64,000 nt of DNA from Fructobacillus tropaeoli (GTDB lineage: Bacteria > Bacillota > Bacilli > Lactobacillales > Lactobacillaceae), in the NCBI RefSeq assembly GCF_001047135.2, contig NZ_DF968081.1, forward strand, positions 114,611-178,610, in the 5' to 3' direction. The notes under the pieces are model-generated. The model was not told the DNA's origin. It was given only the letters and a program-made list of their open reading frames with translations, and ran no database searches. Below, piece after piece: positions 1 through 64,000 of the stretch. The first letter of the stretch is position 1, and each line of letters starts with the position of its first letter. The position numbers and the translations under genes are program-made.

Positions 1-326
1 ACCGAGGATGTACCACCATTACCACGCAATGAATCAAAAGTTCCGGTTGGAATTTGTTGACCATCTTGGTATGACCACGTAATGCTATCGGTCTTCACAA
101 TTCCTTGTTTGGCTAAATCAGTATAATTAAAAGTTTGTACCTGATTGTTAGTCTGAGTGGATGCATTTCCATCAGCAAAAGCTGGTGTGGTCAGCCCCTC
201 ACTAGCAAAAGTAAGGCCACCAGCAACGGCAAAAGCTGATATTGAAAGCACTACCCAATTCTTCTTGACTTTTTTCAGAACCTTACGTTCGTTAACTTTC
301 GTCAATTGCATTTTATTATACTTCAT
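1..326 (-). CDS. Secreted protein, N-terminal part only (runs off the left edge)
   Basis: The reading frame is open from an ATG at 324-326 to the window edge, about 108 codons. GGAGGG lies 8 bases upstream of the ATG. The N-terminus is long and very basic (Lys/Arg-rich over about 26 residues and ending KKVKKNW). A hydrophobic core around residues 27-42 follows, and then a likely signal-peptidase site after PAFA. This resembles the extended KxYKxGKxW signal peptides of large LAB exoproteins, although the exact consensus is not met. The mature start is Thr/Asn/Gln-rich and then carries a Trp- and Gly-containing stretch I do not recognise. It is probably a wall-associated or exported enzyme such as a glycan-active protein, but the function cannot be called from this fragment. 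Confidence 0.7.
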   Translation of the reverse strand, partial: MKYNKMQLTKVNERKVLKKVKKNWVVLSISAFAVAGGLTFASEGLTTPAFADGNASTQTNNQVQTFNYTDLAKQGIVKTDSITWSYQDGQQIPTGTFDSLRGNGGTSS

Positions 327-462
327 GAAAATAGCCCTCCATTTCAACTAATGAATCATCATTTTAAAACTTCTCCTTGTTAACTCGAGAACATTGTATC
401 AAATATATTTCTTTATGTACATTTTTGTTTCTATTGTATCTGTTTAGGTTAGATTATGTGCA

Positions 463-490
463 CAAAAAAAAGAACGCCGAAGCGTTCTTC
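463..490 (-). terminator. Rho-independent terminator of gapA
   Basis: The arms AAGAACGC and GCGTTCTT flank a CGAA tetraloop. On the minus strand the stem is followed by a run of eight T. It lies 15 bases after the gapA stop. Confidence 0.9.
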
Positions 491-504
491 CTTTATATAA
501 ATGA

Positions 505-1515
505 TTATACGTTTGCAAAGTGCAACAAAGTACGGATCATGTTTGAAGTGAAACCGTATTCGTTGTCGTACCATGAAACAGTCTTAACCAATTGCTTGTC
601 ACCGGCTTCGACGATTTGCGTTTGAGTAGCATCGAAAGTAGCACCGTGAGTGTCACCAATGATGTCTGATGAAACGATTTCGTCTTCGTTGTAGCCAAAT
701 GAGTCAGAAGCGGCTGCCTTCATAGCTGCATTGATTTCGTCTGCTGAAACCTTCTTTGACAAAACTGAAGTCAATTCAGTAACAGAACCGTCAACAACGG
801 CAACACGTTGTGCGTGACCGTCAACCTTACCCTTCAATTCTGGAACAACAAGGCCGATAGCCTTAGCAGCACCAGTTGAGTGAGGGATAGTGTTTACTGA
901 AGCAGTACGGTTTGAACGGAACTTCTTTGACTTAGGTCCATCCAAAATCATTTGAGTTGAAGTAAAGGCGTGGATAGTAGTCATCGTTGCCACTTCAACA
1001 CCGAATTGGTCTTGCAATACACGAGCCATTGGAGCCAATGACTGTGTAGTACATGAACCAGCTGAAACGATCTTGTCGTCAGCCTTCAAGATGTCTTGGT
1101 TTACACCATAAACAACAGTTGGTACATCACCAGCTGGAGCTGAGATCAAAACCTTCTTAGCACCTGCGTCCAAGTGGGCTTGTGACTTTTCGGCTGAAGT
1201 ATAGAAACCAGTAGCTTCCAATACATATTCAACACCATCGTTCTTAACCCAAGGAATGTTCTTTGCATCGCGTTCTGCATAAACAGTGTAGTGCTTACCG
1301 TTAACCACGATACCAGTTTCATCAGCAGAAACTTCAGCATCCAAAGTTCCATGAGTTGAGTCATACTTCAACAAGTATGCCAACATTGATGGGCTAGTCA
1401 AATCGTTGATGGCTGCAACTTCAACATCAGCTGCTGAGTCGCCAAGTTCCAAGATACGACGGAATGCCAAACGACCAATCCGACCGAATCCATTAATACC
1501 AATCTTCACAGTCAT
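505..1515 (-). CDS. gapA: Glyceraldehyde-3-phosphate dehydrogenase, type I
   Basis: This is the glycolytic NAD-dependent dehydrogenase that turns glyceraldehyde-3-phosphate into 1,3-bisphosphoglycerate in the cytosol. The protein is 336 residues, normal for the family. It starts with MTVKIGINGFGRIGR, the Rossmann fold signature. The catalytic Cys sits in GSCTTQSLAP near residue 155, a slight variant of the usual SCTTNCLAP. The C-terminal WYDNEYG motif is present. The frame can be extended upstream by 19 codons, but the ATG at 1515 has GGAGG at the right distance, so I place the start there. The gene is monocistronic, with its own promoter and terminator. Here it is not followed by pgk-tpi, a split arrangement that is common in heterofermentative lactic acid bacteria. 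Confidence 0.97.
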   Translation of the reverse strand: MTVKIGINGFGRIGRLAFRRILELGDSAADVEVAAINDLTSPSMLAYLLKYDSTHGTLDAEVSADETGIVVNGKHYTVYAERDAKNIPWVKNDGVEYVLEATGFYTSAEKSQAHLDAGAKKVLISAPAGDVPTVVYGVNQDILKADDKIVSAGSCTTQSLAPMARVLQDQFGVEVATMTTIHAFTSTQMILDGPKSKKFRSNRTASVNTIPHSTGAAKAIGLVVPELKGKVDGHAQRVAVVDGSVTELTSVLSKKVSADEINAAMKAAASDSFGYNEDEIVSSDIIGDTHGATFDATQTQIVEAGDKQLVKTVSWYDNEYGFTSNMIRTLLHFANV

Positions 1516-1560
1516 GTGTGTAGACCTCCAATTAATTTTTTGACTTATGTCAACAAGGAC

Positions 1561-1591
1561 ATTATAACACAAAGGCTAGAAACCAGTGCAA
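1561..1591 (-). promoter_or_regulatory. Probable gapA promoter
   Basis: On the minus strand a perfect TATAAT (1561-1566) lies about 45 bases upstream of the gapA start. The best -35 is TTGCAC at 1586-1591. The 19-base spacer is long, so the -35 assignment is tentative. Confidence 0.5.
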
Positions 1592-1731
1592 GTGTTCACT
1601 AGAAATTGTTTGGAAAATTAACCATACCATTTCCTGATTTTGTCGGATAACTGAAAGAAAACTGTCTTTTTTATTCATTGAAATCCTTGCTATAATATTC
1701 CTATTATTATGAAACACATGGAGAGATGATT

Positions 1732-62191: not shown

Positions 62192-62253
62192 GTTGTCGCC
62201 TCCATAGCACCCTAGCTATGTACAAAAGGCAATTTTTGGGGATGTCATGAAAA

Positions 62254-62304
62254 AAAGGCGTGCGTTTTGACCGTCACTTACAGTCCATGAACGTCACGCC
62301 CCTT
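62254..62304 (-). terminator. Terminator of the element's small membrane protein gene
   Basis: GGCGTG and CACGCC are arms of a long hairpin. On the minus strand seven T follow. It lies between that gene and the integrase. Confidence 0.7.
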
Positions 62305-62354
62305 ATTTTGCCACCGTTTAACCTTTTGCACAATGCAACATTTTTTATATTTTC

Positions 62355-62702
62355 TTAGCTGTTCACGGTATAAAACTCTTCAGCTTCTTCAAGTTCTTCA
62401 TCAGCAACTTTTAAACGCGCTTCCCGTCTTTGGTGACGGTCATAGATAGCCCACTTCTCTGACTCTGTTAGTGGCTTTCTTGTTTTGTCGCCGTTGCTTA
62501 ATCTATCCACGTCATAACCTAATTGTTTTAGCAGGTCTCTAAATGTCTCCGCCTCTTCTTCGGCATAGGTTGCTTTATTTTCGTGTAGCTTGGCATAGTA
62601 TCTAAAAAAGTGGGCGCTTTGATAAAACTTATTTATTTGCCACTTTTGGCAAAAGATAACACCAACCATCACGGCCAACAATATCGCTATAAAAATATTC
62701 AT
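62355..62702 (-). CDS. Small element-encoded protein with an N-terminal membrane helix
   Basis: This 115-residue protein starts with a membrane helix (MNIFIAILLAVMVGVIFC), then a highly charged, mostly helical cytoplasmic part. Glu/Lys/Arg-rich heptads near the end (RRREARLK-type and ADEELEEAEEFY) suggest a coiled coil. The ATG at 62702 has AAAGGG five bases upstream. It lies between integrase and primase, where phages often carry host-surface or exclusion genes, but no family is recognised. Confidence 0.65.
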   Translation of the reverse strand: MNIFIAILLAVMVGVIFCQKWQINKFYQSAHFFRYYAKLHENKATYAEEEAETFRDLLKQLGYDVDRLSNGDKTRKPLTESEKWAIYDRHQRREARLKVADEELEEAEEFYTVNS

Positions 62703-62717
62703 TTTTCCCTTTCTTGT

Positions 62718-63170
62718 TCGTGTCATCTTGTGTCTAATTTGTGTCAGGTAAAAAAACGCTGTATCCCTTGTTGCTCTAAGCTCTAATCCTTTTTCGTGTC
62801 ATTTGTGCCCGCTTTTTCCCACTTCTCCGCTCTATAGGGGGTGTGTTACCTCTCTCTTTTCTCCCCTTTCTATAAAGTTGAGGTCTTCAGAGTACTCAAA
62901 ACCTGACACTTTTAACACAAAATATAGTTAAGACCTAGAGTAACAAGGTGTTTCAGATTTCAACTTTTAACACATTTCTGACACAGTGACGCCTCTTGAG
63001 CTCTCTTGACGGTTGAGCTCTGACACAAAAACCAACACATTTACCCAAAATCGTACTTTTCGAGGTCTAAACCTAGCCAACTAAATTGAGGGTTAGCACT
63101 TTCTCCCTCTGGATGAAGACGGGTTCTAGTACTTAAAATCCCTTTTTGTGTCAGGTTTGTGTCAAAACTC
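62718..63170. repeat. Iteron-like TGTGTCA/TGACACA repeats
   Basis: The word GTGTCA/TGACAC occurs about eight times: near 62720, 62742, 62795, 62903, 62979, 63020, 63147 and 63158. CTTTTAACACA occurs twice (about 62908 and 62965). Most copies are in the 310-base gap next to the primase gene, the last two are inside its 3' end. Repeats of this kind beside a P4-type primase-helicase are typical of a replication origin. Confidence 0.6.
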
Positions 63171-64000
63171 CGTTTATTTATTTTTGACTCAATTTTGTTG
63201 TCTCTTAACCAATCTTGGAACCTTGCAAAGGCTACTTGTTTTGATACACCACCCGTATATCCCTCTGGCGTTTCCTTTCGTGCTTCTAATAAGAAAGAGC
63301 TAACTAAGTCCTGACTGTTCGCCCAGTCTTTCGTGACCTCTTCAATTTCATCACTAACCGTCAGCCTCATATTGGCCTTGGCTTCTTGAAAGGCCCTAAT
63401 GCACTCAATAGCAAAACCTCCTAGCTCTTTGATTGCCTCTTTCTCATTCCACAAGCTTTCACGGTGCTTGGCCTCTTTCGGGTTGTCTCGTACTTTCGGC
63501 GCAACTACTGGCACTAAGTGCATACGTTGGACTAAGGCAGAGCTAACCGATAGCTTAGGCTTGTTATTGCTTGCAAAGATGAGCAAGGCATAGAGCTCAA
63601 CACTAATTGAGTTCGATCCTTTACCCTCGACTTCTACCAAGTCTCCCCCTGATAGAGTTTTTAGAGCGTCTGGCATGTCAATGCGAGTATCTGGTATATC
63701 TAGATGGATATTAGCCAACTTCCCAATCAGGTCAACCGTCCCAAAACGTGCACTCTTACCATTGCTACCGGTCAGCGTGTCAATGTCCTTGGCTGTGATG
63801 TTAGCCTGCCCGATAAGTGGCTTTACAATCTTGTCTACAAAGTAGCTTTTACCACTGCCACCCGTTTCATCTAACAGAATTGTAATGGTGTTAAAGGTAT
63901 GTTGTTCTGGTATGAAAGCATAACCGATAATCTCCTTGAGATACTGCCAAGAATTGCCAAACAGGTATGCACCCCAAGCGTTGATATTCGGGGATGCTTG
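63041..64000 (-). CDS. Phage/plasmid primase-helicase, P4 family (C-terminal part, runs off the right edge)
   Basis: The frame is open from the stop at 63041 to the window edge, 319 codons, so a start at 63718 (a TTG) is not real. The superfamily 3 helicase motifs are clear: Walker A LLDETGGSGKSYF near the window edge, Walker B LANIHLDIPD and motif C YALLIFASNNKPKLS. A winged-helix-like C-terminal part follows. Such proteins open and prime the element's own origin. It is transcribed toward the integrase gene. The N-terminal primase half lies outside the window. Confidence 0.9.
   Translation of the reverse strand, partial: QASPNINAWGAYLFGNSWQYLKEIIGYAFIPEQHTFNTITILLDETGGSGKSYFVDKIVKPLIGQANITAKDIDTLTGSNGKSARFGTVDLIGKLANIHLDIPDTRIDMPDALKTLSGGDLVEVEGKGSNSISVELYALLIFASNNKPKLSVSSALVQRMHLVPVVAPKVRDNPKEAKHRESLWNEKEAIKELGGFAIECIRAFQEAKANMRLTVSDEIEEVTKDWANSQDLVSSFLLEARKETPEGYTGGVSKQVAFARFQDWLRDNKIESKINKRSFDTNLTQKGILSTRTRLHPEGESANPQFSWLGLDLEKYDFG

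Follow-up and report, generated by a model that had tools for sequence, protein, structure and literature searches.

What is the role of the heptamer AAATCAG in Fructobacillus tropaeoli? The question is raised by a 64-kb stretch of the F. tropaeoli genome (hereafter the window, at its full length), in which an initial annotation had noted a strong excess of AAATCAG and its reverse complement CTGATTT, leaving an uptake sequence, a Chi-type site and a methylation site as open explanations. The window ends at position 64000 with the end of contig C4 of the genome (G000; 1,684,039 bases). We found that the excess is independent of codon usage, that it has no strand preference beyond composition, that sister clades carry different words, and that copies are conserved, with a maintenance that appears to follow the state of the competence gene comEC. 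Together, these observations suggest that AAATCAG is probably a tag resembling a DNA uptake sequence (DUS), by which this Gram-positive Fructobacillus clade would mark its own DNA.

AAATCAG is over-represented independently of codon usage

An exact count gave 96 copies of the word in the window (51 AAATCAG and 45 CTGATTT on the plus strand), close to the approximately 90 counted by hand in the initial annotation. The mean in 100 dinucleotide shuffles of the window was 14.96 (standard deviation 4.06, maximum 27), and AAATCAG was the top over-represented 7-mer under a trinucleotide Markov model (96 compared to 18.2 expected). The Markov check of 7-mers that the annotation had proposed was also run on the window with a maximal-order model, which expected 55.9 copies. 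The excess thus persisted, at a smaller size because sub-words of AAATCAG are enriched along with AAATCAG itself. The whole genome contains 2384 copies (1320 + 1064) compared to 181 (84 + 97) of the reversed-word control. In 464 kb sampled from the genome, 742 copies were present compared to 152 predicted by the trinucleotide Markov model, a 4.9-fold excess. The analyses of orientation, codon shuffling, one-mismatch words, strand, conservation, three-way alignment and dialects reported below cover part of each genome, which for G000 is 400-604 kb of the 1.684 Mb.

Shuffling synonymous codons 100 times over 430 predicted open reading frames (ORFs) of G000 predicted 141 copies where 610 were observed; split by orientation, the observed and predicted numbers were 246 vs 62 and 364 vs 79. 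This rules out codon usage as the sole cause of the excess, in agreement with the initial annotation. Intergenic copies in the sample were also in excess (122 compared to 24 expected from the Markov model), and density was higher in intergenic DNA (1.9-2.2 per kb) than in coding DNA (1.4-1.6 per kb) in five of six pieces of the genome. A 20-kb piece of contig C5 had no intergenic copies. Within the window, our own ORF set gave 20 intergenic copies and coding-strand counts of 48 CTGATTT and 27 AAATCAG, in line with the earlier estimate of about 20 intergenic copies and of both orientations inside genes.

Recognition of the word looks sharp, because the 21 one-mismatch words together occur at 0.94 of expectation in G000; AAATTAG is the only one that is clearly raised (2.1-fold). 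Flank preferences are modest (A at -1, G at -3, C at +7, T at +15 and A at +26, with a codon-phase ripple), and the spacing of copies is close to random, with a mean of 614 bp and a coefficient of variation of 0.93 in the sample.

AAATCAG and AAAGTCG are clade dialects

The window encodes a K+ transporter with 99% identity to its counterpart in Fructobacillus sp. EFB-N1, which we take, from identical word and control counts, to be genome G100. On the same footing, G124 is presumably F. fructosus, G125 F. papyrifericola, G126 F. parabroussonetiae, G127 F. pseudoficulneus, G123 F. ficulneus, G122 F. durionis, G128 strain CRL 2054 and G001 strain ESL0958. Among 121 genomes of the family, the ratio of the word to the reversed word was highest in G000 (13), EFB-N1 (12) and G073 (11). 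The highest ratio noticed outside the genus was 8.3 in G059, from another genus of the family (1024 copies vs 124 reversed), which may reflect composition or another case of such a word. Relative to expectation, AAATCAG was raised 5.2 times in G000, 5.0 times in EFB-N1 and 3.1 times in G073, and stood at 0.9-1.5 in the other 10 of the 13 genus genomes. A second word, AAAGTCG, reached 3.0-4.5 times expectation in G122, G124, G125, G126 and G128 (clade B) and 0.9-1.7 elsewhere among the 13. These ratios come from part of each genome, with G122 and G123 contributing little sequence; whole-genome counts were also made. On the AddA tree, each of the two sets needs a single change when five ungrouped rows are not counted, and G041 and G121 are unresolved relative to clade B. 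AAATCAG and AAAGTCG are therefore dialects that belong to clades. No clade-specific word stood out in the 89-191 kb taken from each of G127, G123, G001, G041 and G121.

Dialects could also follow swaps of specificity modules if AAATCAG were the target of a type III or IIG DNA methyltransferase, with methylated self DNA being spared or preferred at uptake. A non-palindromic, adenine-containing 7-mer suits such enzymes, and a preference for methylated self DNA at uptake has been described for some Campylobacter. Restriction by itself, however, selects against its sites rather than for them; this is a weak counterpoint, and we regard a methylation target as decidedly unlikely.

Gain and loss of the word differ between sister lineages

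Conservation and turnover were measured against control words (permutations or one-mismatch words). Words with gaps or unaligned positions and high-scoring segment pairs of <300 bp (<250 bp for the polarised comparison of G125 and G126) were dropped before counting. AAATCAG copies of EFB-N1 were kept in G000 in 89% of cases compared to 70% for control permutations, and copies of G073 were kept in G000 in 75% compared to 51%. Copies of G000 were kept less strikingly, in EFB-N1 (77% vs 72%) and in G073 (63% vs 54%), such that the word lay above controls in all four within-clade comparisons. G000 copies were shared less than controls with G127 (8% vs 20%, at 76% identity) and G123 (11% vs 18%), suggesting that most copies arose within the clade. 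For the dialect AAAGTCG, G126 copies were kept in G125 in 75% compared to 18%, G125 copies in G126 in 47% compared to 19%, and copies of the G125-G124 pair in 32% and 52% compared to 16-17% for controls.

Gains and losses were assigned in a three-way alignment of 162,418 words, in which G000 and EFB-N1 are 94.8% identical and G073 is the outside genome. On the G000 branch the word was gained 24 times, compared to a mean of 4.9 (maximum 18) for 209 permuted words and of 6.8 for the 21 one-mismatch words. It was lost at 9 of 164 sites, compared to 401 of 2941 (13.6%) for controls (p 0.002). Relative to controls, the word was thus acquired at 3.5-5 times the rate and lost at 0.4 times the rate. 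On the EFB-N1 branch there were 8 gains compared to 4.8 (permuted) and 6.5 (one-mismatch), a number reached by 36 of the 209 permuted words, and losses were control-like (19/174 vs 345/2885, or 12.0%; p 0.81). The two branches differ in gains (p 0.007), in losses (p 0.03) and jointly (p 0.0006), and AAATCAG ranks first among 82 frequent words in the net difference between G000 and EFB-N1.

A sequence-context bias of mutation or repair that creates AAATCAG free of any function could explain why gains were raised more than losses were lowered. Loss of the word was nevertheless lowered on the G000 branch, and single changes at any of the seven positions yield AAATCAG, with the neighbour words as a set not depleted and AAATTAG raised. 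Such a bias is therefore a highly improbable cause.

A second pair of lineages is provided by clade B, in which G125 has 36 private AAAGTCG copies and G126 has 16 (p 0.005).

Maintenance of the word appears to follow the state of comEC

The initial annotation had proposed a search for competence genes and RexAB/AddAB. Both were recognised, and the com genes are partly broken in the AAATCAG clade. From a search set of comEA, comEC, comGA-comGG, DprA and ComF, the genes comEA, comEC, comGA-GD, comGF and comGG turned up in each of the 13 genus genomes and comGE in nine (it was not found in G001, G121, G125 and G128); in G127, comGF is matched in two frames. DprA was recognised in 13 of 13, as was a ComF-like protein, which scored below the family cut-off in all. 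In G000, comEC is open and encodes 787 aa. In EFB-N1, comEC is split between two contig ends with an internal piece missing; one end carries a transposase-like frame, which by eye we take to be IS30-like, and the end sequences at the break recur at other contig ends. In G073, comEC is broken and comEA and comGA each lie in two frames. In clade B, comEC and dprA are each in two frames in G126 and open in G125. The nuclease genes do not follow this pattern: the AddA/AddB frames are open in both G000 (1372/1201 aa) and EFB-N1 (1379/1201 aa), and AddA scored above the family cut-off in 12 of the 13 genomes, the thirteenth, G123, being cut by N runs. The state of comEC is a correlate of word maintenance and not a proven cause, and the independent lineages are few.

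AAATCAG has no strand preference beyond composition

Leading and lagging strands were assigned by local GC skew, with origin and terminus unmapped. In G000, 329 copies of AAATCAG fell on the leading strand and 413 on the lagging strand, and a stranded Markov model predicted 67.7 and 82.9 (p 0.74). The word therefore has no strand preference beyond composition. This bears on the reading of AAATCAG as the Chi site of the clade's RexAB/AddAB nuclease, which selection for the repair of breaks would maintain. Chi sites are over-represented short words that vary from genus to genus, that of Lactococcus being GCGCGTG (rare in G000, 11/9), and AAATCAG resembles them as a short over-represented heptamer in genomes that nearly all have an AddA above the cut-off. 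In contrast to Chi, AAATCAG lacks a strand bias, and it is lost at the rate of controls in EFB-N1 with its AddA and AddB frames open. Moreover, the genus has another Chi-type candidate. GGGGATG/CATCCCC is raised 2.8-9.4 times in 13 of 13 genus genomes sampled and lies on the leading strand in 211 cases vs 28 lagging over nine genomes, although in G000 its skew is what strand composition predicts. In the three-way alignment GGGGATG is so scarce that its losses (3/19 and 2/18) do not show whether it is maintained. We regard GGGGATG as a genus-wide candidate for the Chi-type site of Fructobacillus RexAB, and a Chi role of AAATCAG as unlikely.

Strand bias, which AAATCAG lacks, is likewise expected of KOPS (FtsK-orienting polar sequences). 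A role of AAATCAG in chromosome architecture, as a guide resembling KOPS or SRS (SpoIIIE recognition sequences) or as a site of a nucleoid protein with a clade-specific DNA-binding reader, would agree with the near-random, genome-wide spacing and with the lower density of the word in unmapped DNA described below. KOPS and AIMS (architecture imparting sequences) of Lactococcus lactis are described as A-rich heptamers (PMC5357621), and AAATCAG is also a heptamer spread over the chromosome. The control-like loss in EFB-N1 would in addition require loss of the putative reader. A likelier guide than AAATCAG is GAAGAAG/CTTCTTC, a possible KOPS that is raised 1.6-3.1 times in 13 of 13 genomes and is leading-strand biased in the three genomes listed (68:22, 54:13 and 39:14). 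Because GGGGATG and GAAGAAG are raised throughout, the genus has a candidate Chi site and a candidate segregation guide in addition to AAATCAG, neither of them proven. The lack of strand preference and the control-like loss in EFB-N1 weaken both Chi and KOPS as candidates for AAATCAG, and we consider an architectural role very unlikely.

A putative uptake code in a Gram-positive clade

Among the three readings left open by the initial annotation, the uptake-like one is favoured by the absence of strand preference, the dialects, the conservation, and maintenance that follows comEC and not AddAB; Chi fits poorly. In the mechanism that we propose, a competence pilus or DNA receptor of the clade would preferentially bind or import DNA carrying AAATCAG, candidates for the receptor being a pseudopilin (ComGC-GG) or ComEA. 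Alleles bearing the word would be taken up and recombined more often or, alternatively, retention during transformation would be biased. The word would then accumulate by molecular drive and persist at thousands of sites on either strand, and other clades would drift to other words, giving rise to the dialects. The drive may have been active in this isolate until recently. A broader model, which seems to us slightly more likely than not, is that of a Fructobacillus self-DNA uptake code in which a monoderm competence pilus or receptor reads the heptamer, at least two dialects act as mating-type-like barriers between sister clades, and the code decays neutrally wherever a lineage has broken its comEC.

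Several points weigh against the uptake reading. All three AAATCAG-clade genomes have a damaged com gene: in addition to comEC in EFB-N1 and comEC, comEA and comGA in G073, comGA of G000 (contig C3, locus 172501-181500) is split by an in-frame TAA into frames of 192 and 130 aa, with comGB-comGG open. The comGA stop is probably recent, because the other com genes found in G000 are open. Possibly none of the clade is competent now, and the link to competence therefore rests on timing. Conversely, comEC and comGA are both open in G041, G121 and G001, yet no dialect was found in them. According to PMC12040237, sequence-independent uptake is the rule outside Neisseria and Haemophilus.

Further points concern conservation and turnover. 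The control words were unmatched for codon position. Conservation of AAAGTCG was weak between G124 and G128 (21% vs 18% and 23% vs 16%), and in the second pair polarised losses were alike (G125 2/21, G126 3/22), with 22 vs 11 gains (p 0.08). A decay signature in G073, sought as raised one-mismatch words, was not seen (1.01). Strictly polarised G000 gains (n = 10) lay in tracts where other changes private to G000 are frequent (mean 0.16, controls 0.07). Recent DUS in Neisseria are likewise reported in such change-rich stretches (PMC2397512), and paralogy can also be a cause. Since divergent tracts account for part of the recent gain excess in G000, we repeated the contrast after removing them (139,839 words). 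It shrank and kept its direction (joint p 0.015): losses were 6/147 vs 230/2561 in G000 (p 0.049) and 15/156 vs 277/2608 in EFB-N1 (p 0.79), and gains were 15 vs 3.35 for controls in G000 and 8 vs 3.67 in EFB-N1. The latter is still approximately twice the control rate (p 0.03), which fits a loss of comEC part-way along the EFB-N1 branch. Lastly, inverted intergenic pairs are few, with 7 within 60 bp among 122-129 intergenic copies.

To our knowledge, such uptake tags have been described so far in two Gram-negative families. The uptake signal sequences (USS) of Pasteurellaceae occur about once per kb, on both strands and in coding and intergenic DNA, as AAATCAG does; they differ from it in letters and host phylum, and the flanks of AAATCAG lack a strong A/T-tract consensus. 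As described in PMC3630211, PMC2397512 and PMC5031613, the DUS of Neisseriaceae are short non-palindromic words present in thousands of copies, with clade dialects that track the phylogeny, and their copies are better conserved than the surrounding sequence and less frequent in accessory DNA. AAATCAG shares these features, the last of them only tentatively. Unlike DUS, which are 10-12-mers of different letters, it is a 7-mer in a monoderm host, and its uptake role is inferred from sequence. Terminators often hold DUS in Neisseria (PMC1852404), in contrast to the few inverted intergenic pairs of AAATCAG. Because the uptake and the receptor are both deduced, we describe AAATCAG as working like DUS and USS and do not assign it to either. 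Among the open-access titles and abstract openings listed from PubMed Central, none reported an uptake sequence in Fructobacillus or other Gram-positive bacteria, which does not imply absence from print. If the uptake reading is true, the word would represent a third, unrelated origin, in a Gram-positive, and such codes would evolve repeatedly. The clade would also provide a small system, with dialects in close relatives, for finding the receptor, and sister strains with a dead comEC would allow a test of drive versus selection as the keeper of the tags.

Inverted pairs and the copy-free end of the window

The initial annotation had named three foldable inverted pairs, the first overlapping a terminator. 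All three exist, and only one folds well. A perfect inverted pair, AAATCAG-N2-CTGATTT at 3826-3841, lies directly behind a reductase-like gene (2492-3826) and folds with 11 pairs around a loop; the site 3825-3842 folds best of the three (-11.7 kcal/mol, z -2.9). It does not appear in the terminator scan list for positions 1-20000 of the window. The intergenic pair CTGATTT ... AAATCAG at 14880-14924, 38 bp apart, forms no significant hairpin, and an exact count places three intergenic copies (-, +, -) within 33 bp at 54066-54098; the z scores of the two other named sites are -2.1 and -0.8. Intergenic pairs with a distance of at most 60 bp number 10 in 464 kb; 7 are inverted, and in 6 of these the distance is at most 40 bp. 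The link of AAATCAG to terminators is weak, and a terminator function was rejected given the few pairs.

All 96 copies lie in positions 1-57500 of the window (51 on the plus and 45 on the minus strand), the last ending at 57500, and the 6.5 kb from 57501 to 64000 contain none, as the annotation had recorded. Given the mean spacing in the sample (614 bp), a 6.5-kb gap has P = 2.5e-5, with 0.018 expected among 736 gaps. A tyrosine integrase gene (Pfam Phage_integrase) on the minus strand at 61067-62191 has 66.9% DNA identity over ~1 kb to that of Leuconostoc phage LLC-1. A minus-strand frame running off the contig end (63041-64000) has a weak DUF5906 match (27.4 bits vs a family cut-off of 27.6) and probably represents a replication gene belonging to the element of the integrase. 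The mobile element proper is only approximately the last 3 kb of the window; ahead of the integrase, 57.5-61 kb holds an MFS transporter gene and a helix-turn-helix (HTH) regulator. In a comparison of the last 6.5 kb with plasmids and phages, the only similarities were short ones in the HTH regulator region (18 plasmid records) and that to one phage integrase.

For the suggestion that foreign DNA lacks the word, this end contributes a zero count over 6.5 kb, of which the element makes up only ~3 kb. On contig C3, 23.7 kb without counterpart in G073 or EFB-N1 carry 27 copies (1.14 per kb compared to 1.79 elsewhere), as judged against the sampled parts of these relatives, outside which two edge stretches may have counterparts. 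In this one contig tested, DNA without counterpart is moderately depleted of the word, which is not absent. The second longest copy-free stretch in the sample (L089:723-6258, 5.5 kb, near the end of contig C1 of G000) holds a match to an rli28-like small RNA.

A scan of the window against Rfam at gathering scores found three tRNAs only. The palindrome GCAGCTGC is raised in the window (14 compared to 1.5 expected). A small operon is duplicated at 44087-46260 and 47291-49464, 3204 bp apart, each copy having the same succession of three ORFs (217, 213 and 289 aa); the copies are 81-82% identical in the two 300-nt stretches compared.

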